This document shows positions 6,001-36,767 of a stretch of DNA of 64,000 bases, piece after piece. The position numbers were made by a program, and so were the translations under genes. The notes below the pieces were generated by a model. It did not search any database, was not told the DNA's origin, and was given only the letters and a program-made list of their open reading frames with translations. This DNA is from Brumimicrobium oceani (GTDB taxonomy: Bacteria; Bacteroidota; Bacteroidia; Flavobacteriales_D; Crocinitomicaceae), in NCBI RefSeq assembly GCF_003143775.1, contig NZ_QFRJ01000002.1, forward strand, positions 330,501 through 394,500. The letters are read 5' to 3'. The stretch's first letter is position 1. Each line of letters starts with the position of its first letter.

Positions 6001-6459
6001 AAAAGAAAAATTAGAGCTAAAATCTTGACAAGCTGGTTTACAGCTGATCACTCCTTCCCACCCCACATTACTTCCTGATAGATTTGCGGTGAATACGAAG
6101 GTAAGACAGCCAGAGGCATTACTTGGTGATGCTTCAACAAACCCAGGACCAGTTGCCCCAGAGTATGTTCCAATAGGTGGTGCGCCAACATTATCTCCAT
6201 CATAAATCGTGAACTGATCATAATAGAATTCCGTGTTAAAGCTGACAAAATCTACACGAGTTGACATTCCATTACTTGGACAAATGGTATAGGTTAAATT
6301 TTCACCATTTGTATAATTTCCAGAGGGACCACCCGTATCATAAAACATTCCAGTACAAGTAGTAATTGTGTCTCCATCTGTCATATTAAAGTTTTGGGCG
6401 AATATTGAATTTGCACCTATTAATATGAAGAAAAAAATAATTATACTGATGTGTTTCAT
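1..6459 (-). CDS. Giant secreted multidomain protein (CUB, PKD, P-domain, HYR-like repeats), 3' end outside window
   Basis: The frame is open from an ATG at 6459 to the window edge (2153 codons, no stop); the C-terminus lies beyond base 1. Residues 1-20 are a signal peptide ending SIFAQ. Residues about 25-140 look like a cysteine-containing CUB domain (ending GWEGVISC). A PKD-like stretch follows, then at about 290-460 a proprotein-convertase P-domain (LSICVNMEHSFLGDLGVIIE, later GVWTLTFTDDW). From about residue 590 the protein is roughly 16 HYR-like repeats of 80-81 residues, each with four cysteines (TVQC, ADNC, TCPE, DDCGN), interrupted at about 1250-2000 by an Ig/SprB-like module also present in the two upstream paralogues. 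By analogy with those paralogues I expect a type IX secretion C-terminal domain off the window. Probable role: adhesion or extracellular binding. The small gene 32 bp upstream may be co-transcribed. Confidence 0.85.
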   Translation of the reverse strand, partial: MKHISIIIFFFILIGANSIFAQNFNMTDGDTITTCTGMFYDTGGPSGNYTNGENLTYTICPSNGMSTRVDFVSFNTEFYYDQFTIYDGDNVGAPPIGTYSGATGPGFVEASPSNASGCLTFVFTANLSGSNVGWEGVISCKPACQDFSSNFSFSPAPDPDGVIRICQGTTVSMTGSGTYPFNNTEYTQSDATSTFSWSTQDGVNPVGQNVSHTFNNDGGYLIQLQMEDIEGCSNTNITNQEIRVSTTPEFTGTEAVPEEICIGDQSVLTGVVTPVTFDRICDQPVFPPIALPDGTGVSYSTSVNIECFLPNQSLTDIDDLLSICVNMEHSFLGDLGVIIECPSGQTVNLVDFNFGVGAHLGSPIDNDNFPFAQGIGFDYCWTPNATNGTLAANGTSGISIPAGSYESENPMDALVGCDLNGVWTLTFTDDWASDNGFVFDWSLNFNTGIIPPSIAFTPVIVSENWQADPTIVSGTNPINVEPPALGSSCYTYEATDNFGCSYDTTICVNVNPFPIINPIPDVNQCLPYTLPAITGANLSGSEAYYTGTGGTGTQYNPGDIISSTTTMYIYDSGLPAFCEDETSFLITIYPVTLTINCPPNLTANCNISEQPPYANLTAFENAGGSVSVSAGASILPSTFTLLSEVSDNNSCPETVTRTYQIQDDCGNTETCTQIITINDDINPTGTAPAGMAFQCVTDIPAANSSLVTNVNDNCTAHPIVTHLGDVSDGNTCPEIITRTYRITDNCGNFTDLTQDFTINDDILPTGTAPADITVQCIGDVPLPNVLEITDEADNCTVNPIVTHVSDVSDGNTCPEIITRTYNITDDCGNNIDVVQTITVSDDIAPTGTAPANVTVQCVGDVPMADVNLITDEADNCTTNPIVTFVGDVSDGNTCPEQITRTYRITDDCGNSTDLIQLITINDDINPTGTAPADLTVQCIDDVPANDISLITDEADNCTVNPTVTFVGDVSNGNTCPELITRTYRITDDCGNFTDLNQIITVNDDIHPTGTAPANVTVQCIGDVPIPDVSLITDEADNCTVNPIVTHVSDVSDGNACPEIITRTYNIADDCGNNIDVVQTITVNDDIFPTGTAPADLAVQCIGDVPIPDVLEIADEADNCTVNPIVTHVSDISDGNTCPEVITRTYNIADDCGNNIDVVQTITVNDDILPTGTAPADLTVQCIGDVPIPNVLEITDEADNCTVNPIVTHVSDVSDGNTCPEIITRTYNIADDCGNNIDVIQTITVNDDIAPTGTAPANVTVQCIGDVPLPNVLEITDEADNCTVNPIVTHVSDVSDGNTCPEQITRTYRITDDCGNFTDLVQFITINDDILPTGTAPVDLTVQCIGDVPVHDISLITDEADNCTVNPTVTFVSDVSDGNTCPEVITRTYNIADDCGNNIDVVQTITVNDDVNPTASNPAPLVVQCLTDVPPVDISVVTDEADNCTVNPIVAFSSESTDGNSCNGEIISRIYSVTDDCGNSINVTHEITIASYTPTFTVSGTGTGSCGGSDGTITLSGLDPNTSYEMSYDGGPTNTITTNAAGEYVITGLIAGSYTNFTVSDIDCPSCTTTENVSININDPTSGLIDAGPDAFYCEGTTIVLSANNPDGAILSWDNGITDGVGFVPPVGVTYYTVTADLTNCFSSDQVMITVSPAITDITCPGDLTAVCDISEQAAYANFDEFIAAGGSATIPAGGIIDSSSFILLSEVSNGNSCPKIITRTYQIADTCGVTVSCSQDIVINDLINPTATAPSDTTVQCIGDVPAVDITAITDEADNCTANPIVTHVSDVSDGNLCPETITRTYNIADACGNNIDVIQIITVDDDINPTGTAPADVTLQCIEDLPAADINLITDEADNCTAIPTVTHVSDVSDGNTCPEIITRTYNIADDCGNSINVLQTFTINDTILPTGTAPADVALQCLADLPAVDVLAITDEADNCTVNPTVTHVSDVSDGNTCPEVITRTYNIADDCGNNIDLVQTFTINDDILPTGSAAPLAVQCIGDVPAPDVNYITDEADNCTVNPTVTHVSDVSDGNTCPEVITRTYNIADDCGNNIDVTQIITINDTILPTGTAPADVTVQCISDVPAVDISAITDEADNCTVIPIVTHVSDVSDGNTCPEIITRTYNIADDCGNNIDVVQTITINDDIAPTATA

Positions 6460-24344: not shown

Positions 24345-25442
24345 CTAAACATTGAAACGGAAGTGCATGATATCACCATCTTTTACAATGTATTCTTTTC
24401 CTTCTACTCCAAATTTCCCTGCTTCTTTACAAGCTGCTTCAGAACCGTATTTCACGAAATCTTCATACTTCATCACTTCCGCACGAATAAATCCTTTTTC
24501 GAAATCTGTGTGAATTACACCTGCCGCTTGAGGAGCTGTTGAACCTTTTAAAACTGTCCAAGCACGAACTTCTTTTACTCCAGCTGTGAAATAAGTATCT
24601 AAGTCCAACAATTTATAAGCTGAACGAATCAAACGCGCTACTCCAGACTCGGTTAAACCCAATTCTTCCATAAACATTTGGCGTTCTTCGAAAGTATCTA
24701 ACTCTGTAATATCTGCTTCGATCTGAGCCCCTATGATCAACACCTCAGCGTCTTCATCCTTAACAGCATCTTTTACCATGTCAACGAATTTATTTCCGTC
24801 TTTCACAGATGATTCGTCAACATTACATAAATACAAAACTGGCTTTACAGTAATCAAATGAAGCTCTTTAACATGCGGCCATTCGTTTTCATCAAAATCC
24901 ATTGAGCGCACTGACTCACCCGATTCCAAGTGTTTTTTAATGCGTTCTGCTAAATCATAAGCTCTTTTCGCTTCTTTATCACCAGATTTTGCAGTTCTTG
25001 CCAGACCATTTAAACGCTTTTCAACCGTTTCAAGATCTTTCAATTGCAATTCATAATCAATAACTTCCTTATCTCTTAGAGGATCTACAGAACCGTCTAC
25101 GTGCACGATATTGTCATCTTCGAAACAACGCAAAACATGAATAATTGCATCTGTTTCACGAATATTTGCCAAGAATTGATTTCCTAAACCTTCACCTTTT
25201 GAAGCTCCTTTTACCAATCCTGCGATGTCCACAATTTCCATAGTCGTTGGTACAACGCGCTCTGGTTTCACAATCTCTTCTAACTTTTCAAGACGTGGGT
25301 CTGGAACAGAAATAGTTCCTACGTTAGGTTCGATTGTACAAAATGGATAGTTTGCCGACTGCGCTTTCGCATTCGATAAACAGTTAAATAAGGTAGATTT
25401 ACCCACATTCGGTAAACCAACAATTCCACATTTTAATGCCAT
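24345..25442 (-). CDS. ychF: Redox-regulated ATPase YchF (OLA1-type GTPase-family protein)
   Basis: A 365-residue protein of the usual family length, starting at the ATG at 25442. P-loop GLPNVGKSTLFN is at residues 7-18 and DIAGLVKGAS carries the G3 Asp. The G4 motif is NVDE instead of NKxD, the mark that gives this family ATP preference. The C-terminal TGS domain is visible (AWTVLKGSTAPQAAGVIHTD ... FVKYGSEAACKEAGKF). Known role: ribosome-associated regulatory ATPase. It has its own promoter, with TATCTTTG 18 bp upstream of the start on the minus strand. Confidence 0.96.
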   Translation of the reverse strand: MALKCGIVGLPNVGKSTLFNCLSNAKAQSANYPFCTIEPNVGTISVPDPRLEKLEEIVKPERVVPTTMEIVDIAGLVKGASKGEGLGNQFLANIRETDAIIHVLRCFEDDNIVHVDGSVDPLRDKEVIDYELQLKDLETVEKRLNGLARTAKSGDKEAKRAYDLAERIKKHLESGESVRSMDFDENEWPHVKELHLITVKPVLYLCNVDESSVKDGNKFVDMVKDAVKDEDAEVLIIGAQIEADITELDTFEERQMFMEELGLTESGVARLIRSAYKLLDLDTYFTAGVKEVRAWTVLKGSTAPQAAGVIHTDFEKGFIRAEVMKYEDFVKYGSEAACKEAGKFGVEGKEYIVKDGDIMHFRFNV

Positions 25443-25459
25443 TTGAAAAAATTTTGATG

Positions 25460-25467
25460 CAAAGATA
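25460..25467 (-). promoter_or_regulatory. ychF promoter, -7 element
   Basis: The plus strand reads CAAAGATA, i.e. TATCTTTG on the minus strand, an exact match to the Bacteroidota -7 consensus TAnnTTTG, 18 bp before the ychF ATG. No clear -33 element was read. Confidence 0.55.
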
Positions 25468-25762
25468 ATGCTTGGAATTGATTAAAGCCCTTAAATCCAT
25501 GCAAAATCAGTATATATGTTAGTACAATAGTTTTGCGCTGTAATAGAACGCGGGCCTTCGACAGGCTAGTCACCGCATAATAGATGCAAGCAACGTGGAT
25601 AATCGCGGATTTTTCAGCATTTGGTAAATTAAGATTTTAGCGGATTACTTGCAATTAATAATACAACTTTATGACTAATCACTACCTTCACAAATATTTG
25701 AACGTTGAGCAAGCCGATTCCCCTAACTTCCTTCATAACTTCTGTATAGTTTCTGATTGAAA
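25468..25762. other. Gene-free start of the accessory island
   Basis: About 300 bp without a credible gene between the ychF promoter and the 79-residue ORF. Part of it (about 25545-25620) is visibly richer in G+C than its surroundings (ACGCGGGCCTTCGACAGGC and GTGGATAATCGCGGA), which may be a foreign remnant marking the left edge of the island. I could not match it to a known element. Confidence 0.35.
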
Positions 25763-26002
25763 TCACCTTATTTTCTTACTCAATTTCTCCATTTTGTCAG
25801 ACAGTTCAAACAAGTCGGCAAGCAACATGTGAACAGCGTCCTCACTCAGAACACCTCGCTTAAGGTCTTGGGGGACTTCCTTACTTTTATCTGCCAAAAC
25901 ATCTTTCATGTATTGAAATTCATAATCCTCCTTCAATGTCCTTAGTTTTATCAATGAATCTGAAAGTTCCGTTAATACATTGTCAGATTTTTCAACAAGC
26001 AC
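25763..26002 (-). pseudogene. Coiled-coil ORF, probable 3' remnant of a gene cut by the repeat array
   Basis: The frame gives 79 residues from a GTG at 26002. It is strongly helical with a coiled-coil look (SDNVLTELSDSLIKLRTL, ELSDKMEKLSKKIR at the end). No ATG precedes it: going upstream the frame stays open (FLDELTVLVEK) until it runs into the first repeat sequence at about 26017, where resemblance to the array begins. The simplest reading is that array DNA replaced the 5' part of an older gene. A short intact gene with a GTG start cannot be excluded. Function unknown. Confidence 0.4.
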
Positions 26003-26017
26003 TGTAAGCTCGTCTAG

Positions 26018-26885
26018 AAAACCTGAAAATCCGGGAAATTTAGAATCTACAAAACCCTAAAACCCTTACTGTGAGCGCCTCTAAAGGTTTTTAACGGTTA
26101 ATAACCGATGACAAATAGTTATTCCAGAGAAAACCCAGAAATTCCAAAACTCAAGAATCCACAAAACCCTCAACTCCTTTCTATTAGTGCCTCTAAAGGT
26201 TTTTAACGGTTAATAAGCGATGACAAATAGTTATTCCAGAGAAAACCCAGAAATTCGGGAAATTCAGAATTCACAAACCCCTCAATCCCTTGATATGAGC
26301 GCCTCTAAAGGTTTATAACGGTTAATAACTGATGGTAAGTAGTTATTCCTGAGAAAACCCAGAAATTCCAAAACTCAAGAATCCACAAAACCCTCAACTC
26401 CTTTCTATTAGTGCCTCTAAAGGTTTTTAACGGTTAATAAGCGATGGTAAATAGTTATTCCCGAGAAAACCCAGAAATTCGAAAATTACAGAATTCACAA
26501 AAACCTCAATCCCTTGCTATGAAAGCCTCTAAAGGTTTTTAACGGTTAATAACCGATGTCAAATAGTTATTCCTGAGAAACCCATAAATCCGAAAATTAC
26601 GGAATTCACAAAAACCTAAACCCCTTACTGTGAGCGCCTCTAAAGGTTTTTAACGGTTAATAACCGATGGCAAATGGTTATTCCCGAGAAAACCCAGAAA
26701 TTCGAAAACTCCAGAATTCACAAAACCCTAAAACCCTTGATACGAGCGCCTCTAAAGGTTTTTAACGGTTAATAACCGATGTCAAATAGTTATTCCTGAG
26801 AAAACCAAAAAATTCGAATATTACAGAATCCACAAAACTCTCAATCTCCTGCTATGAGCGTCTCTAAAGGTTTTTAACGGTTAAT
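26018..26885. repeat. Left part of a direct-repeat array, about 112-bp unit, eight cores
   Basis: The core GCCTCTAAAGG starts at 26077, 26189, 26301, 26412, 26525, 26636 and 26748, with GTCTCTAAAGG at 26860, giving spacings of 111-113 bp. The first 28 bases of each unit (through TTAACGGTTAATAA) are almost invariant. The remaining roughly 84 bases vary by scattered substitutions (two recurring versions, AAATTCCAAAACTCAAGAAT and AAATTCGAAAATTACAGAAT), not by unrelated spacers. The last unit stops after GGTTAAT at 26885, 25 bp from the stop codon of the gene inserted next to it. All units run in the same direction. Confidence 0.9.
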
Positions 26886-26909
26886 CAAAACAATAAATTC
26901 AGATAAAAT

Positions 26910-29564
26910 TCAGATAAAATAGCTGTTAAAATCGCGATAAGCAGATGAAACTAACCAATATTTATATTGATTTGGCTTGATGATCACAAAACTATCTCGC
27001 GTGGGGTAAAGTCTTACAATCTTTTCTTGGTTTAGCATTTTTAAATTATTTAAATCTACACCTATTTCTAGAAAAGACCCAATATCCGCCTGCAACTCAG
27101 GTTCTATTATGTCACTAGTATATTGAAAAAGAACAGCGATAAAACTTTCTTCCCATAACATGACTTTACTCAATTTGTACTGCAAGGAACCATCTCCATA
27201 TAATGAATTTACGTTATGAGTAAAAGCCTCACTGTAATTCAATATGAAAGGTAAATAATCATTTTTATTAATCTCTTGAAGAATTTGATTTTCAGATCTT
27301 AAACGCAACAAATTACTTTGATAATTCAGACTCTCCAACATCATTTTAGTATCATATTTTTGAAAGACTTCTAAATTTTGAATGAATGGTAAATTCAAAA
27401 AATCTAAGACTGAAAACTCCCCCTTTTCTTTCACTAAAATTTCCTCATTTGCTAAACTTATGTAGAAAATATAATAGTCCAGATAATTACGAAATGAAGT
27501 ATATAACTCCTCTAATTCAAACTCAGATTGGTCAGCTTTAGTGATAATTAATAGCCCTTCCAGAAAATGTAATTCATTTCCAGACATCTTTACAAGGGGC
27601 ACATCAGCATTAAAAGAGCTATAGTTTTTAAAATAATCGAATAACTTTAATCCCAACAAACTTTCATTTTCCACTCTAATTTGATTTTCGAAAAGTAAAC
27701 TTCCCAGTGTTGGAAATTTTTGAAATGCTTCAACAAAATCGCGCACTTTCCCACCTCCTAACAAATCACTTTTCCAGATAGTAGGATTAAAAACTTCTGT
27801 TTGTTTGTTAATCAAATGAATGTCATAAGTATCGCATTCAATCGCAATATGTTCTTTGGCTAATTTCGAAGTATTTATGACCAAATTCGTTAGGCTCATA
27901 CAACAATCTGCTTTGTCGTTTCTAATCAGTAGCAAACTTGTCGCTGAATCAGTCATTTCACTTCCAAAATGTCCATTTATGGAAAACTGAACGAAGTTGA
28001 AAATCTTCAGAACCGTTTGTTGAATAAATAGAGCATCATGATAATCTGGATATTTCTGGTCAAATAAAAATTTTGAACCGTTGACAAATAAACAAGAATA
28101 TCCGCTTTGCTTTAAGTAGAAAAATGAATTAGAAATGTAATGTTCCGAAACACAAGTGGCTGGCAGTTCAATCGCTTTATTATTTACTTCCCAAGCATTT
28201 AAAGTTTGATTTTTTAATGATTTAACAGAAACAGGATTACCTATTACAAGATCAAAACTCGCTTTAAACTTTTCGTTCTGGTCGAAAAAACTTCCTAAAA
28301 CAATTGGAAAATCAATTGATGAATGTACACTTTTTATCCCATTTCCCACTTCAGCATCTAGAACAGAAAGGTGAAAAATGAATTTTATAAATTGTAAATC
28401 CTCAACATCTTGGGCTAAACAAATTATAGCGTTAACTACCTTTTGAATTTGCTCTAAACCCAGATTTTTCACATCGAATTTCAGCTTCTCCAATTGGATT
28501 AATCTTCTAAAAATCAATACTAAAATCGAAGTTGAACCAATGGCAGGAATTAGAATTCTATAATTAGAAAGGTCAATATTTCTGAGTCTAGAAAAGGGAA
28601 GTGCCTCTTCTACTTGAACCTGAAGAAGTGTTGAAGGAAGCTCAGAACATAAATATTTACCGCTATCTCCAAATAAAACATGATAAATAATTTCACCTAT
28701 TGCTTCATTCGATAGATATTTAAAATCTAATAGATTCCAAAACTTCACTTCGTTTATCAACTGATCTCTAAAATCTGCAAAAGGCTTAGCAGAAAGAATT
28801 ATTTTATCTTTCTCATCAAAATTTACATATTCATAATTGAATTGATTTACAGCGTATGCTGAATTCTTAAAAAACGATTCATAACTGTTAATGTCGTCAA
28901 GCGAAAAACCTAAGTCTGAAATTTTAGGATTTACCAGTGAAAAAGCTTCTAAATACTTCTCCTCCATCAGTTTTAAAAGCAGAACATTTACAATTAGTTT
29001 CTTTTGAGTCGTTAAATCCTGTTCACCAAAATACCTTTTTAGAAAAGTGTATAATTCATCAACATTTTTCTTTAAAATCTGAACAGAAGATTGACGATAA
29101 TCAAATTCATTACGCATTTCGTCCATTGTCCAAAATGTCCCAGATTTTATCCGAATCGCAAGATTTTGAAAGGGAATATTCAAAAAAACGTCACCTAAAT
29201 CACTTTGAGTTTTTTTACAATTGACAATAAAATATTTTGAGTCATAAATGAAAATTGCTAGCGGAACTGCATTCCTATTCCACAATTGATTTTGAATTTC
29301 ACAAATAGCCAAAGTGTCAGCAGAAGAAGGTTTAGATTTATCCGACCAATCATAAAAATAAATCATTGGTTTTGGTTCTCCAATCGATTGAGAAATAAAG
29401 AAAACAGATTTCGCACCAAATGATCTAGCCTCCTCTAAATAAAAACGTTGGTTCCCCGAATTATCTTGGAGAGCGTTTTCTGTATTGATGATTTCCTCAC
29501 CCAAAAAGCCCAATTCTCGAATTACTTTCTCAAAAGCATTCTCTGCTACAACCGTTAACTCCAT
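26910..29564 (-). CDS. Large protein resembling type IIG/Eco57I-type methylases with degenerate catalytic motifs
   Basis: 884 residues from the ATG at 29564 (a GTG sits one codon before). The layout follows Eco57I-type restriction-modification proteins. An N-terminal part (PMIYFYDW, IQNQLWNRNAVPLAIFIYDS, FIVNC) is followed by a helical stretch. Then comes a region matching the methyltransferase core in order: IPAIGSTSILVLIFRRLI where families have DPACGSGxFLVxAxRRL, FHLSVLDAEVG where they have SLYLALLD, and FDLVIGNPVS where they have FDxVIGNPPY/W. The C-terminal part would be the target-recognition region. The SAM-binding Asp and Cys-Gly and the NPPY/W Pro-aromatic are replaced, so methylation is unlikely, yet the frame is intact. 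The gene sits inside one unit of a repeat array. Family assignment is inference. Confidence 0.6.
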   Translation of the reverse strand: MELTVVAENAFEKVIRELGFLGEEIINTENALQDNSGNQRFYLEEARSFGAKSVFFISQSIGEPKPMIYFYDWSDKSKPSSADTLAICEIQNQLWNRNAVPLAIFIYDSKYFIVNCKKTQSDLGDVFLNIPFQNLAIRIKSGTFWTMDEMRNEFDYRQSSVQILKKNVDELYTFLKRYFGEQDLTTQKKLIVNVLLLKLMEEKYLEAFSLVNPKISDLGFSLDDINSYESFFKNSAYAVNQFNYEYVNFDEKDKIILSAKPFADFRDQLINEVKFWNLLDFKYLSNEAIGEIIYHVLFGDSGKYLCSELPSTLLQVQVEEALPFSRLRNIDLSNYRILIPAIGSTSILVLIFRRLIQLEKLKFDVKNLGLEQIQKVVNAIICLAQDVEDLQFIKFIFHLSVLDAEVGNGIKSVHSSIDFPIVLGSFFDQNEKFKASFDLVIGNPVSVKSLKNQTLNAWEVNNKAIELPATCVSEHYISNSFFYLKQSGYSCLFVNGSKFLFDQKYPDYHDALFIQQTVLKIFNFVQFSINGHFGSEMTDSATSLLLIRNDKADCCMSLTNLVINTSKLAKEHIAIECDTYDIHLINKQTEVFNPTIWKSDLLGGGKVRDFVEAFQKFPTLGSLLFENQIRVENESLLGLKLFDYFKNYSSFNADVPLVKMSGNELHFLEGLLIITKADQSEFELEELYTSFRNYLDYYIFYISLANEEILVKEKGEFSVLDFLNLPFIQNLEVFQKYDTKMMLESLNYQSNLLRLRSENQILQEINKNDYLPFILNYSEAFTHNVNSLYGDGSLQYKLSKVMLWEESFIAVLFQYTSDIIEPELQADIGSFLEIGVDLNNLKMLNQEKIVRLYPTRDSFVIIKPNQYKYWLVSSAYRDFNSYFI

Positions 29565-29709
29565 CACTTGAAATAAATAAAGCCTAAATTAAAAAATATC
29601 GCCTCCACCAAAACCAATAAGTCATTTGTTGTTCCAATAACTGATGAAAGGCAGTTTTTTATGTTTGGTAGTAGTGCGATTTCTAAGTGAATATCGATTA
29701 GTTGGGAAG
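29565..29709. other. Upstream flank of the cassette gene, with a diverged partial repeat unit
   Basis: Bases 29636-29646 read AATAACTGATG, the exact continuation of the split repeat unit whose left half ends GGTTAAT at 26885. From there to the next repeat core at 29731 is 95 bp, against 89 bp in an intact unit, but the sequence between has diverged strongly. The promoter of the cassette gene should lie in 29565-29635; I see no TAnnTTTG element there. Confidence 0.45.
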
Positions 29710-30340
29710 TTTAAATCTCTTGCTATTAGTGCCTCTAAAGGTTTTTAACGGTTAATAAGCGATGATAAATGGGGTATTCTAGAGAAAGCCCATAAATCCG
29801 AAAATTACGGAATTCACAAAAACCTCAATCCCTTGATATGAGCGCCTCTAAAGGTTTTTAACGGTTAATAACTGATGTCAAATGGTTATTCCTGAGAAAA
29901 CCGAAAAATTTGGGAAAATTATAGAATTACAAAAATTCTAAACCCCTTGATATGAGCGCCTCTAAAGGTTTATAACGGTTAATAACTGATGGCAAATAGT
30001 TATTCCTGAGAAAACCCTAAAATTCGAAAATTACAGAATTCACAAAACCCTGAACCCCTTGATATGAGCGCCTCTAAAGGTTTATAACGGTTAATAACTG
30101 ATGGCAAATAGTTATTCCTGAGAAAACCCTAAAATTCGAAAATTACAGAATTCACAAAACCCTGAACCCTTTGATATGAGCGCCTCTAAAGGTTTTTAAC
30201 GGTTAATAAGCGATGGTAAATAGTTATTCCCGAGAAAACCCAGAAATTCCAAAACTCAAGAATTCACAAAAACCTCCACCACTCGCTACGAGCGCCTCTA
30301 AAGGTTTTTAACGGTTAATAAGCGATAGTCTAAATGAGCA
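29710..30340. repeat. Right part of the direct-repeat array, six units
   Basis: GCCTCTAAAGG starts at 29731, 29843, 29958, 30070, 30182 and 30293, spacings 111-115 bp, in the same direction as the left part. The units starting at 29958 and 30070 differ at only one or two bases, a sign of recent duplication. The last unit decays after about 30 bases. With the left part the array has 14 cores. Each core holds TTAACGGTTAA, a palindrome around a central G, and many units also hold AATAAC...GTTATT, a second inverted repeat with a 12-base loop. Confidence 0.9.
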
Positions 30341-30420
30341 ATTCTGAGAATACCAAATAAGTAAAGAACCGTAACCCAAAAAGCCCCTACCACCTCATCA
30401 CTAAAACAAACTAAATACAC

Positions 30421-30978
30421 TTATTTTGGGTGCGCTTTGTAATAGAATTTCCAAAAACCATACTCCTCTTCGGGTTTAATCAATTTAAATGTTTCTGTAT
30501 AATTAATTTTATCAATTTCTAAATTCCAGCTCCGTTTTGAATCTAACTTTTCGTTAAGAATGGGGAATAATCGATGCGTGAATTGATCAAAAGCCACTTG
30601 AAGCGATAAACTATCCTTATCAGTTGAAAACGTCCAATTACCAGAAATTCCCGTTATGCGATTGTTCGAGTTGTCGCTGTGAAAAAAGACAATTCCGCCT
30701 ATTACACCAATGTCAAGTTGAACTGTGAAATAATCATCGGTTGACAGAAAATCCTTTTTATGCTTAAAGTTTCCATTTTCATGACTCATTGGATCCAATC
30801 TATAACTAAGTTCTGCATCCAAATCCTCTAATTTTTGACCAGGTGTAAGAAAGGGTTTTTCCTTGTACATCAAACTTATTGGACTGTACTCCTTCGACAC
30901 ATCAAATTCTTCCTTATTTGAACACGAAGTAATGAGTAGGAGTAGGAAGACAAACAATGCTAAAGTTTCGGGTTTCAT
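30421..30978 (-). CDS. Lipoprotein of unknown function
   Basis: I place the start at the ATG at 30978 (a GTG lies five codons upstream), giving 185 residues. The N-terminus is a lipoprotein signal: a hydrophobic run (LALFVFLLLLITSC) with lipobox LITSC, so Cys19 would be lipidated. The mature part has no family I recognise; it includes GVIGGIVFFHSDNSNNRITG, GNWTFSTDKDSLSL and a basic end (FYYKAHPK). It lies right after the repeat array, alone between the array and the nuclease-NTPase pair. Its role in the island, if any, is unknown. Confidence 0.7.
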   Translation of the reverse strand: MKPETLALFVFLLLLITSCSNKEEFDVSKEYSPISLMYKEKPFLTPGQKLEDLDAELSYRLDPMSHENGNFKHKKDFLSTDDYFTVQLDIGVIGGIVFFHSDNSNNRITGISGNWTFSTDKDSLSLQVAFDQFTHRLFPILNEKLDSKRSWNLEIDKINYTETFKLIKPEEEYGFWKFYYKAHPK

Positions 30979-31182: not shown

Positions 31183-32070
31183 TTATTTTATTCTATAGTA
31201 TTTGGCATTAAAATCGTCAAGTAAATAGATTCTCTCAAAACCAGATGTATCGAGGTTAAAATCGTTTTCAATTTCGAAAGAATCTCGGTTAAGTGAACCT
31301 GCAACTAATAATAACCACTGTTCATTCAATTTGGATAATCTCTTATATCTTGCAACTTTAGACTCTTTTTTGTCAATAAAAAATTTAAGAGTTTCGAATT
31401 CTAGTTTTTCTGTTTTGTTAATATTAGTTCTTAAAATATACTTTACTTGTGTGTGTGGCTTAATTGAAACTCTATTTATATAATGTGGTTTATCAGTTTC
31501 TTCACCATTAATTAAAGAGTGGACATAATTTGCAATCTCCATAGATAATTTTGAAGACTCCTGTTTTTTGAAGGAGAATAAATCGTCAATAAATCTTATA
31601 TCAACAATCATATTTGGACAATTAGGATATTTTTCCTTGAATGGGGTTAGGGAATCAGTGAATGTGTTAATATAATATTTTTCAACTCTTTGAATTAGAT
31701 TCTTTATAGATCCAACATTACCGACTGTTTTTGTATTTCTAATTGTTTCGTGTTCTAAGCCTATTATTTTATCTTTTACTTGAATAATAAAGTCAGGAGA
31801 TTCACTTTTACTTTTTATCGAAATTTCTTCATTTAAGAGTATCAAAAATTTACCTACATGACTTATTTCTAATTTTTCTTTATCAGAATTTTTATTAGAT
31901 AATAGATGGTCAATCATTAGGTGTATTTTTTGACTAACCAATTTATGCTCATCTCTTATTTTCTTTAAATCATCAGGATTGAAGTTCAATTTACCTTGGT
32001 TGTAGTTTATTTCAATTTGATAATGTTTTTTTTGCTCTTTGCAACGTGATTGTGTATGGTGTCGTAGCAT
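31183..32070 (-). CDS. Unknown protein, partner of the nuclease-NTPase gene
   Basis: A 295-residue soluble protein with an ATG start 18 bp after the stop of the upstream NTPase gene, so almost certainly co-transcribed. Visible features: a charged helical N-terminal half; a central SPDFIIQVKDKIIGLEHE, whose D and E-x-E pattern could be a diverged PD-(D/E)xK nuclease core; and a C-terminal WLLLVAGSL ... GFERIYLLDDFNAKYYRI, a pattern I associate with small uncharacterised nuclease-like proteins. None of this is firm. The context suggests a second component of a defence system. Confidence 0.6.
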   Translation of the reverse strand: MLRHHTQSRCKEQKKHYQIEINYNQGKLNFNPDDLKKIRDEHKLVSQKIHLMIDHLLSNKNSDKEKLEISHVGKFLILLNEEISIKSKSESPDFIIQVKDKIIGLEHETIRNTKTVGNVGSIKNLIQRVEKYYINTFTDSLTPFKEKYPNCPNMIVDIRFIDDLFSFKKQESSKLSMEIANYVHSLINGEETDKPHYINRVSIKPHTQVKYILRTNINKTEKLEFETLKFFIDKKESKVARYKRLSKLNEQWLLLVAGSLNRDSFEIENDFNLDTSGFERIYLLDDFNAKYYRIK

Positions 32071-32088
32071 CCCGCAGAGTGCTATGCA

Positions 32089-35000
32089 CTATAAACTTTG
32101 TTGTAAAGTGCTATATTTTTTTTGATATTTCATCCAGCCTGAATAAGTGCTTAATTTCGTTTTAATTGAACTATCGGAGTAGCCAGAGAAAAATCCTTTT
32201 ATTTCTTCATTTTTCAATAATTCACTTAATTTCTTATTATCGATTTTATCATAGATTAATCTAAATGAACCTAGATGCTTGTTATTTTCTATAAATTCAG
32301 ATAGTTGAACTTCAGGCTCTATAGAATTCAAAATTCTTAATCCAATGGAACTTAAATCAACAGCACCACCAACTTCATTTAATATTCCAAGAAAAATCAA
32401 ATCCGATATTTTTCTTTGATTTTCTAAAGGTATGTTGTTGTCAAAATCAACAATAGCATCTATTACGTAGCTTGGACTGAAACTTAAATAATAAGAACCA
32501 AGATTTCTTATCTTATTTGTGAAATTAAGGTTTACACCACCTTCTGACTCATAAGTGAGAATGAAATTCGCCCATGATAAAAGAACACTTGCAACTTGTT
32601 TTTTCGAGGTGACGCTTTTATACGGAGCTAATACATCACCTATTTTTTCAATAATATCATTTGCTTTTAATTTCCCATATAATTTTAAAAGATCATAGGT
32701 TTGTTTGATATTTACATTCTTCTTAGCTTCCTCAAATAATCGTTCTTGTATATTGGTTTCGGAAATAATTATATCCCCATCTTCTGAAATTAAATCCATT
32801 AAAAGTAAATCGCGTACTTTCCGTTGAGCTAAGGATTCGCTGTCTAAATTATATTTTTCAAATGATTTGATACAAATTAAAGGAGAGTATCCTGGTATTT
32901 GTTCATGTTTATCCTTGATTGCTGCACTACCTCTCCCTTTATTGATTTCAACAACCCTGTCTTTTATTGCTAGATTGCTCATCTTTAGCCATATTATCAA
33001 GTATTTTGCATAGGTATTCCAAGTGCTATCCTCAAATTTTACAGTAGTAAAAATTGACTTTAATACTTCAACAATATCAATGACTTCAATGGTGTCTTTT
33101 TTGATTTTTAAAAGTTCATAATAAGGAGTGTAATTAGATAATTTTTTCGAGATATAATCTTTAAAAAAATCGGATGAAATACTATCGACCTTAGGTGTGA
33201 CCAAGTATTCATCCTTTCCAGATGTCTTCTTAACTAAACCAATACTTCTTAACTCAATGAGGATATTTCCCATTGAGTTTTCAGAAATGTCATTTGGATA
33301 ATCACTGCACAAATCAGTCAAAGATTTTTTCTGGTTTAATTCGAAAGTTAAAAAACAATCAAGGCAGGCTTTACCACTATTACGTAATAGATAACTTTCA
33401 CCAATTACTGGAATTTCTTTTGTTACAATATAGTCTCTAAATATATCCCAATATATATTATAACTACTACCAGTCCTAATTACTAACCTACTATGAATTA
33501 ACGAATTAACAACTTCTTGATCGATAGTTTCGTATTCTGAAATTTCAAAAGGGTTTCCATCAAATGCCCTTTTAGCAATATATTCTAAGGCTTTAGATTC
33601 TTCTCCGGATAAATTTGAAAGATCACTTTCAAACAATTCTTTATAATTTAATTCTTCTTCAATAATTTCGTCAATGGTTTTACCTTCTTTGTATTGATTG
33701 AGAGTATGGATACACAATTTTTTTGCTAACCAAGGAAATCCTTGAGAACTTTGAATTAACCTATTCTCTAGTTCGACACCAATGCTTTTACCTATACTTT
33801 CCTCTAATTGCTTTATAATTTGCTTCACATCATTTTGGGAAAAGGCTGGAATTGTGATTGGATATGCATATTCTCTTAATTGAATAAATTTTGGATGTGC
33901 GGGATTTCCAATAGGAATGTTTATTTCGGATTTCCATGAGAATCCAACGACCAAGTTTGCTTTTTGAGAATCAACGTCTAAGCAAAACTTGTAAAATGCA
34001 TCAAATAAGTTATCCTTTCTAAATTGATCCTCAAATTGGTCAAAAATAAGAACTAATAATTTTTTTGATTTTTTTAATTCTTTAAATAAGATTTTCACCG
34101 ATTCATCAGCAAGAATATCATGTGGAGATGCTATTAGTAGTTGCTTAGTGAAAATGTTATTTTCGAGAAAATTATTTTTAATCGCATCTTCAACGAGTTT
34201 TTTAAATGCAAGTCCAATGAAATTTGCACTTGAGGCACTCCTTGTATCAATTGCAGAAACAAATAACCGTCCTTTCCAAAATTTTAAGTTTAAGCTACTT
34301 CCTTTTAATTCGGCTAGCAATGAACTTTTACCCCAACCTGATTTACCATCTAGGAAAAAAATCCTCTTTTCTGTATTTCCTGTTCTAACCTTCTCCAAAA
34401 ACCCTTTTAAATTTCTCCTTAAATTTAAACGACCAATAAAGTGATGAAATGAAGCAGGAGAAGTTTCATACCAGTTTTCACTTTCTCTAATTTGAATTAT
34501 TATATCCCTTTCGTGCTCATTAGATAAACCGACTGCACTTGGTGTACTATTGCTAATTTCTAAAATTTCAAGATCTGCTAATTCCTTAATGTTTTTTTTG
34601 TAAAAATCTTGAATTAACTTTACTTCAGGTTTGTTAGTTTTTGCATTTAAAGTTGTGAAATATTGGGCAACGCTCCCTTTTTGTAAAATTAATATATAAT
34701 GAAACCCTTTTGGACTGTAGGATAGAATCAATTTTGATATTTCTAGGTCTGCAATACTGTCATCTTTAAAGGGCATAATTTTCCCAATATCTTCCAATAT
34801 TTCTATCAATTCTTGCGGACCTATAAATGATACGTTTTTCTTTTTTTCCGATAGCTGTAGGCTTAATGTGGCAGCTTGCCTATCCAATTCTTGTGTATGA
34901 ATAAAATAACCATAATCAGCCATTTTATCCTCTACGCCATAATCCATTGAATATATAAAATTCTTTATTTCAGTTGATTTCGGCTTTATTTTAGCCTTAC

Positions 35001-35193
35001 ATTCTGCGTAAAGTATTTCATTTTTAGTTTTATGTTCAGCAAACAAATCTATTTCAAGACCCGCATCATGTACATTTTGAATTATTTTGTATCGGTCTTT
35101 TTCCAAAACCATCCGTATCAAGTTTTCAAAGACACTGCCATTTTTAGATTTATGGTCTCCTTCCTCTAATAAAACTTTAATTTCCTTTAACAT
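32089..35193 (-). CDS. Mrr-like nuclease fused to STAND-type NTPase, putative anti-phage protein
   Basis: A 1034-residue cytoplasmic protein with an ATG start. Residues 1-135 look like a restriction-endonuclease (PD-(D/E)xK, Mrr-like) domain: GSVFENLIRMVL, Asp49 in GLEIDLFA, and Glu64/Lys66 in LYAECKAK. A P-loop GKSGWGKSS is at 283-291, and a Walker-B-like strand LLVLIFDQFEDQF at 379-391 carries Asp385 and Glu388. After the NTPase comes a winged-helix-like region and about 400 helical residues that would act as the sensor. This effector-NTPase-sensor order is known from STAND defence proteins (Avs type and relatives). It is shorter than classical Avs and is not assigned to a named type. Confidence 0.75.
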   Translation of the reverse strand: MLKEIKVLLEEGDHKSKNGSVFENLIRMVLEKDRYKIIQNVHDAGLEIDLFAEHKTKNEILYAECKAKIKPKSTEIKNFIYSMDYGVEDKMADYGYFIHTQELDRQAATLSLQLSEKKKNVSFIGPQELIEILEDIGKIMPFKDDSIADLEISKLILSYSPKGFHYILILQKGSVAQYFTTLNAKTNKPEVKLIQDFYKKNIKELADLEILEISNSTPSAVGLSNEHERDIIIQIRESENWYETSPASFHHFIGRLNLRRNLKGFLEKVRTGNTEKRIFFLDGKSGWGKSSLLAELKGSSLNLKFWKGRLFVSAIDTRSASSANFIGLAFKKLVEDAIKNNFLENNIFTKQLLIASPHDILADESVKILFKELKKSKKLLVLIFDQFEDQFRKDNLFDAFYKFCLDVDSQKANLVVGFSWKSEINIPIGNPAHPKFIQLREYAYPITIPAFSQNDVKQIIKQLEESIGKSIGVELENRLIQSSQGFPWLAKKLCIHTLNQYKEGKTIDEIIEEELNYKELFESDLSNLSGEESKALEYIAKRAFDGNPFEISEYETIDQEVVNSLIHSRLVIRTGSSYNIYWDIFRDYIVTKEIPVIGESYLLRNSGKACLDCFLTFELNQKKSLTDLCSDYPNDISENSMGNILIELRSIGLVKKTSGKDEYLVTPKVDSISSDFFKDYISKKLSNYTPYYELLKIKKDTIEVIDIVEVLKSIFTTVKFEDSTWNTYAKYLIIWLKMSNLAIKDRVVEINKGRGSAAIKDKHEQIPGYSPLICIKSFEKYNLDSESLAQRKVRDLLLMDLISEDGDIIISETNIQERLFEEAKKNVNIKQTYDLLKLYGKLKANDIIEKIGDVLAPYKSVTSKKQVASVLLSWANFILTYESEGGVNLNFTNKIRNLGSYYLSFSPSYVIDAIVDFDNNIPLENQRKISDLIFLGILNEVGGAVDLSSIGLRILNSIEPEVQLSEFIENNKHLGSFRLIYDKIDNKKLSELLKNEEIKGFFSGYSDSSIKTKLSTYSGWMKYQKKYSTLQQSL

Positions 35194-35510: not shown

Positions 35511-36755
35511 CTAAGCTGCCTTCATTTTCGCCATCTTAGAATTTGAAAATTGCTTTTTCGCATATTCTAAAGTTACCCTGTACTCCTTCGCATGATCTTT
35601 ACTTGCTGGAATTTCGTACATCGCTTCTGTTAGAATGGCTTCACAGATTGAACGTAAACCACGAGCACCCAATTGGAATTCTATGGCTTTTTCAACAATG
35701 AAATCAAGGACTTCGCTGTCGAATTTCAAGTCTATTCCGTCAATTTCAAATAACTTAACATATTGTTTGAACAATGAATTTTTAGGTTCTGTTAAAATTC
35801 TACGCAATGCTGCTTTGTCTAGTGGTTCCAAGTAAGTCAATACAGGGAAACGACCAATCAATTCAGGAATTAAACCAAAGGATTTTAAATCTGTAGGATT
35901 CACAAATTCCAATAAATTGTCCTTGTCAATTCTTTCCTCTTCCTCGTTCGCAAAACCAATTGTTTGACGATTTACACGGCGCGCAATCAGTTTCTCAATT
36001 CCGTCAAAGGCTCCACCACAAATAAATAAGATATTCTTAGTGTTCACTTTTACCATCTTTTGCTCTGGGTGCTTTCTTCCTCCTTGTGGCGGAACATTCA
36101 CCTCTGCTCCTTCAAGCAATTTTAGCAAAGCTTGCTGAACTCCTTCTCCAGAAACATCTCTCGTAATGGAAGGATTGTCACTTTTACGTGCGATTTTATC
36201 AATTTCGTCAATGAAGATAATTCCACGTTCTGCCGCTTGAACATTGTAATCTGCAGCTTGCAAAATACGCGATAAAATACTTTCAACGTCTTCACCAACA
36301 TATCCTGCTTCCGTTAGAACAGTGGCATCAGCGATACAAAAAGGAACGTTTAACATTTTAGCAATAGTTTTCGCTAAAAGTGTTTTCCCTGTTCCTGTTC
36401 GTCCAACCATCACCACGTTCGACTTATCAATTTCGATGTCATCATCGCCAACCTTCTGGTTTAAACGCTTATAATGGTTGTAAACCGCAACAGACAAAGT
36501 TTTCTTGGCAGATAACTGACCAATCACATATTCGTCTAATTTGGCTTTTATTTCTGTGGGCTTCATCAAGTTCAAAGGCGCATCATCAGATCCACCGTCA
36601 ATTCCTAATCCACCACTTGGTATTTCTTCTTTCACAATCGTTTGCGCTTGAATAATACAGTGATCACAAATGTGCCCTGAAATTCCCGCAATTAACAATC
36701 TGACCTGACTTTTTGGTCGGCCACAGAAAGAACATGTTGTTTCTTTTTTACTCAT
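35511..36755 (-). CDS. clpX: ATP-dependent Clp protease ATP-binding subunit ClpX
   Basis: 414 residues from the ATG at 36755; an upstream TTG is less likely. The zinc-binding domain is at the N-terminus (CSFCGRPKS ... HICDHC). The AAA+ module has Walker A GRTGTGKT near residue 120 and Walker [11 protein letters not shown] near 185, the pore-loop region follows, and sensor 2 is in [10 protein letters not shown]. Unfolds and feeds substrates to ClpP, which is encoded next upstream on the same strand. A -7 element (TATTTTTG) lies about 50 bp upstream, with a small hairpin in the leader, so clpX can be transcribed separately from clpP. Confidence 0.97.
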
Positions 36756-36767
36756 ATATCTTGACAA

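Follow-up and report, generated by a model that had tools for sequence, protein, structure and literature searches.

An interrupted tandem array of a dispersed palindromic repeat in Brumimicrobium oceani and an associated clade of small zinc proteins

The window, which is the whole stretch of 64,000 nucleotides analysed here, derives from Brumimicrobium oceani, a bacterium of the family Crocinitomicaceae. Between the genes for a YchF-like GTPase and ClpX it contains a tandem array of a short repeat, which is split by a segment carrying a gene. The features of this gap are the following:

24345..25442, minus strand: YchF-like GTPase, left border of the gap (name from reading of the sequence)
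26018..26885, plus strand: left array part, 8 cores and 7 full units of 111–112 bp, stopping at GGTTAAT within the eighth palindrome
26082..26110, plus strand: an example of the 29-bp near-palindrome that is the core of each unit, TAAAGGTTTTTAACGGTTAATAACCGATG
26886..29635, no strand: inserted segment, 2,750 bp, 31% G+C against 36% in the window
26910..29567, minus strand: 885-aa relative of Eco57I-type N6-adenine methyltransferases, with motif I and NPPF degenerate
29636..29735, plus strand: remnant of the interrupted unit, which opens with AATAACTGATG, closes with TTTAAATCTCTTGCTATTAGTGCC and is degenerate in the middle
29736..30340, plus strand: right array part, 6 cores and 5 full units of 112–114 bp; the right edge is approximate, just past the last core
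32089..35193, minus strand: 1,034-aa protein with an Mrr_cat endonuclease match and sub-threshold AAA/STAND matches
35511..36767, minus strand: ClpX, right border of the gap (name from reading of the sequence)

The array comprises 14 cores, eight to the left and six to the right of the gene, all in one direction. The initial annotation had already described this arrangement; the spacing of the cores, measured here, is 111–114 bp (111–112 bp on the left and 112–114 bp on the right). The cores, counted from the G of GTTTWTAACGGTTAAT, start on the plus strand at 26087, 26199, 26311, 26423, 26535, 26646, 26758 and 26870 in the left part, and at 29741, 29854, 29968, 30080, 30192 and 30304 in the right part. 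Over their whole length the 12 intact units are 77–99% identical to one another and lack unrelated spacers; a CRISPR array was rejected on these grounds, as the initial annotation had also concluded. Left and right units are intermixed in one tree, with modest support. No match to the array was found among 72,556 plasmid records, and a comparison of window positions 25400–30500 with Rfam gave three matches at E values up to 1, all far below the gathering scores.

In the interrupted unit, GGTTAAT (ending at 26885) is followed by the 2,750-bp insert and then by AATAACTGATG, with which the unit resumes at 29636; this continuation had been proposed before, and the in-register position of AATAACTGATG bears it out. 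With both strands counted, the ~60 kb of non-array window contain a single instance of the 11-mer class AATAA[CG][CT]GATG, so that only ~0.0015 occurrences are expected in the 175 bp examined. The first 64 nucleotides of the remnant match array spacers modestly (6 of 300 shuffles were equally good). Near both ends of the insert there is a weak inverted match, AACAAYAAAT, and 8 of 2000 random pairs were as good; no transposase was found in the insert. Several observations support the view that a foreign segment of 2.75 kb entered a single unit within the right arm of the palindrome: the remnant is in register, AAT is present at both edges of the insert, the units are intermixed, and the inserted gene occurs in 0 of 58 other relatives. 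Since the remnant is degenerate and its distance from AATAA to the next core is ~5 bp above that of a normal unit, the event may also have been older or less simple.

The initial annotation had placed the inserted gene at 26910–29564. Its end at 26910 and the 24 bp between its stop codon and the break were confirmed, but the 885-aa open reading frame starts with a GTG at 29567, and 29564 is the next codon, an ATG. Related proteins elsewhere in the phylum have 962–1,020 aa; the best relative was aligned over residues 11–638 and 675–884, at 28–29% identity. The Pfam score of the protein for the Eco57I-type family (PF07669) is under the cut-off. At the catalytic motifs the window copy has IPAIGSTS and NPVS, and the seven aligned relatives all have CGSG and NPPF; motifs I (GxG) and IV (NPPY/F) of active Eco57I-family methyltransferases are absent from the 885-aa protein. 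The gene is a putative horizontally acquired relative of Eco57I-type methyltransferases whose catalytic motifs have been lost. The 1,034-aa Mrr_cat protein is the second defence-like gene of the same gap. In six genomes of the genus Brumimicrobium the gap between YchF and ClpX varies from 0.4 to 10 kb, and none of the five read for arrays (G001, G002, G003, G004 and G009) holds one. An integrase was recognised neither in the list of open reading frames for 18–40 kb of the window nor among the four proteins that were run against Pfam.

The 14 units in the window are tandem copies of a repeat that is otherwise dispersed and of the REP/MITE-like type. The consensus of the element is a 29-bp near-palindrome, TAnnSGTTWTTAAC-S-GTTAAWAACSnnTA, preceded by ~25 conserved bases, and it is present in several genera of the family. 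In G153, whose genus is presumably Fluviicola, the element is found between genes, either single or as a doublet around a conserved middle of ~130 bp; its copies lie between open reading frames, except at loci with small, overlapping mechanical ones. All ten doublets read in this genome are direct (10/10), their middle shows 71–86% column identity against 41–60% outside, and the nearest open reading frame on the 5′ side of the element is co-oriented with it in 24 of 27 loci. Fully read arrays start and finish in the palindromic element. Among the 15 arrays with at least three cores in four genomes examined, only that of the window contains a gene. The number of cores varies at a single locus upstream of a zinc protein gene (3 in G000, 3 in G003 and 16 in G002), and G313 carries R-R at a site where G144 has a single R (the element). 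For the L010 array, which ends at GGTTAAT, no second half-site was found within 8 kb. Literature on REP/RAYT, zinc ribbons, Brumimicrobium, Fluviicola and Crocinitomicaceae yielded no paper on these repeats.

In the near-palindrome, 72% of the pair cells are complementary, against 32–51% when the alignment is slid, although column shuffles also retain 70.5% because the columns are conserved. Of 500 shuffles, the observed value was reached by 6 for the covariation score, 11 for cells changed on both sides, 25 for percent paired, 32 for pair types and 167 for pairs changed on both sides. A hairpin maintained by covariation was therefore rejected, the signal being weak, and this weakness favours a double-stranded site. 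The folding of four single elements barely beats that of shuffled sequences (z from -0.3 to -1.3).

What is new here is the partner of this repeat family, a clade of small zinc proteins of unassigned function. The associated proteins have 115–163 aa and are of the CxxC...GRSDKxFCxxxCKNxYH type; the family as a whole is present in 59 of 60 genomes sampled from this bacterial family. In a tree of 57 zinc proteins, a clade of 18 was recovered with support of 99/92. A palindrome lies at most 350 bp upstream of 15 of the 18 clade members, against 2 of 39 in the other (sister) clade (Fisher 4e-9), an upstream palindrome being defined by a score over 11 that at most 1 in 200 shuffles equalled; by this rule L115, L119 and L111 (scores 7.5, 6.4 and 5.4) were scored as lacking it. 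The three clade members without a detected one are L190 (164 bp of upstream sequence covered), L175 and L191. The possibility that all zinc proteins share a palindrome in front of their genes was also considered, and no such general palindrome was seen. In the eight clade-gene loci read, the palindrome copies adjoin the 5′ side of the gene; L228 and L230 have a further copy ~2 kb beyond the other side, and on C19 of G228 a broken gene has a copy on its 3′ side.

The abundance of the repeat follows the same clade, in an association that does not come from a random sample, as genomes were picked partly for the repeats or the gene. Counted with one sequence model of the element (R1), copies number 52 in G000, 40 in G153, 37 in G002, 24 in G003, 16 in G228 and 10 in G134, all with the zinc clade, while 12 of the 13 genomes without it, among 28 scanned, have 0–1; clade status was also checked for ten further paralogs from eight of these genomes. 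G362, with a fragmented assembly, has four elements and no clade gene; G144 has a clade gene and no R1 match, but carries its own palindrome variant; and in G017 three clade genes (L099, L266 and L267) go with a single R1 match. As a test by prediction, the variant read from the zinc-gene upstream regions of genus g15 was searched for and found dispersed, with strand-hits of 25 in G144, 18 in G023 and 15 in G313, so that the variant scattered in this genus matches that of its own zinc genes; seven other genomes gave 0 in six cases and 1 in G399, and the reversed pattern gave 0 in all ten. With regard to the protein, the Pfam scan of five members gave no tyrosine transposase domain (Y1_Tnp), and no catalytic motif was recognised. 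A structure model (pLDDT 82) matched no PDB fold at E ≤ 0.001, and no PDB sequence was found under E 0.2.

Taken as a whole, a history of a zinc-linked spreading repeat, array turnover, and the insertion of a methyltransferase relative into one unit appears reasonably probable. The zinc protein would bind the palindrome as a dyad and regulate its own gene, and either this protein or an unseen transposase acting with it may spread the element. Unequal recombination between direct repeats would expand or shrink them into arrays. In the variable YchF–ClpX gap, a catalytically degenerate and horizontally acquired Eco57I-type methyltransferase relative would then have split a unit of one of these arrays in a single event, leaving half of the unit to the left and half to the right of the insert, with AAT at either edge.

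Several other explanations have to be weighed against this account. That a mobile gene hit neutral tandem DNA in a general insertion hotspot by chance, its position in the unit being meaningless, is a serious possibility. The YchF–ClpX gaps of relatives, which hold different genes without such an array, agree with it, and the palindrome makes up from 13% (15 bp) to 26% (29 bp) of the unit, so that a single hit there would be unremarkable; on the contrary, the AAT edges and the weak inverted match of the ends resemble a defined event, and some g15 cases are suggestive as well. It is improbable that the gene lies between two independent arrays, with no unit ever interrupted: the arrays examined have a core at either end, which makes both halves look complete, and the supposed remnant is degenerate, yet the in-register AATAACTGATG and a tree that mixes units from the two sides are at odds with this reading. 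Also rather unlikely is a role of the zinc protein as an ordinary transcription regulator, with the dispersed palindromes as the operators of its regulon. Its own gene is preceded by the palindrome, and dyad symmetry with weak covariation is as expected for a double-stranded binding site, whereas the co-orientation of 5′-side reading frames in G153, as with 3′ elements, the doublets with a conserved middle and arrays of up to 16 copies are not what a regulon would lead one to expect.

Finally, the palindrome may be a landing or recombination site for foreign genes, with cassettes taken up by the units either directly or as cargo flanked by two repeats. This is unlikely, even if the g15 gene-content differences beside repeats make such a role possible. 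Apart from the window insertion, in the right arm and with AAT at both edges, a 411-aa gene of G023 lies between R and a gene that we take, by our own reading, to be LysE-like, and R adjoins the LysE-like gene in G313 and G144. At a dinB-like locus the gene sets (PemK/MazF-like, GH18, Fic) and the position of R differ among G144, G313 and G023; ~3 kb of genes beside R in G023 are absent from G313. Nonetheless, R is unchanged in place in 34 of 42 g15 site-by-genome comparisons (11 of 39 sites were not comparable), and the remaining 8 trace to three loci, at one of which a repeat unit without genes was gained or lost. Moreover, the junctions at the dinB-like locus fall elsewhere than at R, and G023 L238 and G144 L233 differ by 1.5 kb of gene-bearing DNA at a distance from R. 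The loci were selected around R, which is intergenic, where gains fall anyway, and no recombinase is known. It is important to note that the initial annotation had proposed a cassette at the palindrome. Insertion inside the unit stands, but a dedicated cassette site is unsupported as stated, since 14 of the 15 arrays have no gene and are spaced too tightly for any, and the element in G153 is a dispersed repeat. Arrays without a gene in relatives had been named as evidence against a cassette; they exist for the array family, whereas the five relatives' gaps hold no array at all. The idea retains some probability, as some g15 gene-content differences adjoin a repeat. A stronger version, in which a treble-clef-like zinc protein and the palindrome form a self-spreading system unrelated to RAYTs, with the repeats as preferred landing sites for single genes and the window as one filled site, is improbable.

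Among known systems, integron cassette arrays resemble the window and G144 L227 in having genes between co-oriented repeats, but nearly all units here are gene-less, no integrase was recognised nearby, and attC boxes were not recognised by eye. The 885-aa protein can be aligned with Eco57I / type IIG proteins (PF07669), although motif I and NPPF are lost. Insertion inside an extragenic palindrome is shared with insertion sequences that target REP palindromes, such as ISPpu9 (PMC8450116), while the window insert has no transposase. The window provides a landmark, an array split by a foreign gene, as a reference for tracking array turnover. REPINs also form palindrome doublets around a spacer in extragenic space (PMC3116915), but theirs are inverted and those of G153 are direct. 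The repeat and its partner gene parallel REP/RAYT systems (REPtrons, BIMEs). These differ in that the linked protein here is a small zinc protein without a Y1_Tnp match in five scanned, copies reach at most 52 by R1 in 28 genomes instead of the usual >100 per genome, units are direct and not alternating, and the palindrome adjoins the 5′ side of the zinc gene, whereas a RAYT gene is flanked by two inverted copies. The near-palindrome, at 29 bp and extragenic, falls within the REP size of 20–40 bp. By comparison with PMC2817692 and PMC8266576, both systems share short extragenic palindromes, a palindrome-linked gene and clusters; repeat abundance follows gene presence, and palindrome and gene co-vary, here in a non-random sample. 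These papers attribute REP spread to one enzyme class, the RAYT tyrosine transposases. The REP-like family described here goes with a protein without Pfam similarity to RAYTs, and its proposed spreading by the zinc protein would be comparable to that thought to be carried out by RAYTs. Should these repeats prove to be under the control of the zinc protein, or to be driven by it, part of a widespread family (59/60 genomes) would gain a role, and bacteria would have a second route to dispersed palindromes.

The window is part of contig C12, in a genome that measures 3.85 Mb and has a completeness of 99.97, and a re-reading of its sequence recovered every feature that the initial annotation had claimed for the array of 14 units split by the gene for an 885-aa protein. 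The insertion interrupts unit 8 of this array within the right arm of its palindrome, which reads ...TAAAGGTTTTTAACGGTTAAT, followed by 2,750 bp and then AATAACTGATG. Since the intact unit reads GGTTAATAACTGATG, AAT is present twice at the interruption. The right-hand remnant (29636-29735) is a good match to the unit at its two ends only. The unit of the window array is closest (82%) to that of an array upstream of a small zinc-protein gene about 88 kb away.

The product of the inserted gene has a sub-threshold Pfam match to PF07669 (E 0.0013). A sample of the phylum yielded relatives with around 23-29% identity over the matched stretches in 7 of its 394 other genomes, and a search of 58 other relatives did not find the gene. 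Alignment with seven relatives shows that motif I and NPPF are lost in the window copy; its reading frame is intact. Distant matches occur in 21 plasmid records, mostly annotated, among the 20 listed, as N-6 DNA or SAM-dependent methylases, and the G+C content of the insert is 31% vs 36% in the window. The gene is read as a methyltransferase relative of foreign origin that is catalytically degenerate.

The gap between YchF and ClpX, where the array is found, acquires genes with or without an array. In six genomes of the genus Brumimicrobium (without G008, and without G005, G006, and G007, where the sequence read did not reach ClpX) the two genes are 0.39 (G001), 1.8 (G003), 2.6 (G004), 5.7 (G009), 7.1 (G002), and 10 kb (window's genome) apart, the intervening genes differ wherever space allows, and no array like that of the window is present in the gap of the five relatives. 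Two further genes occupy 31183-35193 of the window: one, at 30% G+C, has a 1,034-aa product in which Mrr_cat and AAA/STAND-like matches were found, and the other encodes a 295-aa protein for which no Pfam family was found; they are perhaps a second defence-like module. The gap of G009, without palindromic array, bears a pair of direct repeats of 66 bp that share 98% identity and lie 3.6 kb from each other (2491-2556 and 6072-6137 of locus L059).

The element, a 29-bp near-palindrome with about 25 conserved bases before it, counted with the 62-position model R1, belongs to a repeat family of doublets and arrays. Of the 15 arrays of at least three cores that were examined, the window's genome contributes seven, G003 four, G002 three, and G216 one; G002 may hold more, because it has 37 R1 matches. 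Units in Brumimicrobium mostly measure 105-119 bp (approximately 216 bp in L010, 185-215 bp in L088 and L090), spacers vary from array to array, and the arrays read out have a core at both start and end, L010 being truncated where its contig begins. Only the window array, among the 15, contains a gene, which is probably a one-off insertion. The L010 array (1-700, start of contig C9 of the window's genome) stops at GGTTAAT, the same base where the window array breaks, and beyond it lies a metallophosphatase-like gene (named by reading); no second half-site was found within 8 kb of this array, inside which the contig begins. In another genus, the single-contig genome G153 has 40 R1 matches, with the nearest mechanical ORF 5' of the element co-oriented in 24 of the 27 loci read (binomial 5e-5). 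At ten loci the element forms a direct doublet with its copies 146-203 bp apart, and column identity in nine aligned doublets is 71-86% in the middles vs 41-60% outside; these doublets have the layout of a miniature dispersed element whose terminal copies are direct. If its two ends recombined, a single copy would remain, and one site has a doublet in G313 vs a single element in G144, two genomes of genus g15.

The family is linked to, and co-varies with, a clade of small CxxC...GRSDKxFCxxxC zinc proteins. An array adjoins such a gene in the window's genome and G003, and a single element does so in G384; the array at this site differs naturally in length, with three cores in both former genomes vs 16 in G002 (L237 4517-6154, units of about 108 bp, directly upstream of the gene). 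Related genes are present in 59 of 60 sampled family genomes. A maximum-likelihood tree of 57 different sequences, in which long branches make the placement of some rows unsure (program warning), contains a clade of 18 (support 99/92). When 59 upstream regions were scored with a position matrix from elements not adjoining zinc genes, the palindrome was detected upstream of 15 of the 18 members (all except L190, with 164 bp upstream, L175, and L191) vs 2 of 39 outside (L120 and L106), and none of 500 label shuffles clustered these genes as well. L120 and L111, zinc genes of the other clade (G031, G188), are preceded by another palindrome-like sequence (GAG...CTC in L120, weaker in L111), and may be a second pair. 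The structure model of the zinc protein (pLDDT 82, pTM 0.56) had no fold match in PDB at E <= 0.001.

The exact core pattern occurs in 10 of 399 genomes of the order sample, window's genome included. At least two R1 elements were found in 12 of 15 genomes with the zinc clade vs 1 of 13 without it (Fisher 1.7e-4; 28 genomes, not random), the exception being G362 (670 contigs); G017 has three clade genes and a single R1 match. Ten added paralogs from eight clade-negative genomes are all far more like the other clade. Within Brumimicrobium alone, the three clade genomes have 52, 37, and 24 R1 matches, and the seven without the clade 0 or 1. R1 barely detects the palindrome upstream of the g15 zinc genes; if the repeats accompany their own zinc gene, that variant should therefore be dispersed in g15. 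This was borne out, with 25 (G144), 18 (G023), and 15 (G313) strand-hits, which include some zinc-gene upstreams themselves and count many sites on both strands because the site is palindromic. The reversed pattern gave no hits in ten genomes; the variant gave none in G009, G004, G018, G031, G348, and G216, and one in G399.

The repeats might alternatively be landing sites for genes. Gene content does differ beside the g15 variant at two of three differing loci, in G023 a 411-aa gene lying between the repeat and a LysE-like gene at one and about 3 kb of genes at the other, and also at a dinB-like locus, where PemK/MazF-like, GH18, and Fic genes appear in differing combinations. However, the repeat is in an unchanged place in 34 of 42 site-by-genome comparisons (11 of 39 sites, the dinB-like locus among these, were not comparable), and the eight that differ stem from those three loci. 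Since, in addition, the dinB junctions do not coincide exactly with the repeat and one 1.5-kb difference sits away from it (L238 vs L233), this explanation is kept only as a rival of modest probability. In G144, some 160 bp of the dinB-like 5' end are duplicated on the far side of the repeat-bearing segment (L227 4426-4589 and 6304-6467), as if the segment had entered by homologous exchange.

The interrupted array is real, and the repeats are preferably regarded as partners of the zinc clade. The zinc protein would bind the palindrome and autoregulate, the repeats would spread, and arrays would grow by unequal recombination. The repeat family and its zinc partner work like the pair of extragenic palindromic repeats and Y1 tyrosine transposase known as REP/RAYT, but the zinc partner does not pass the protein test that defines that family.
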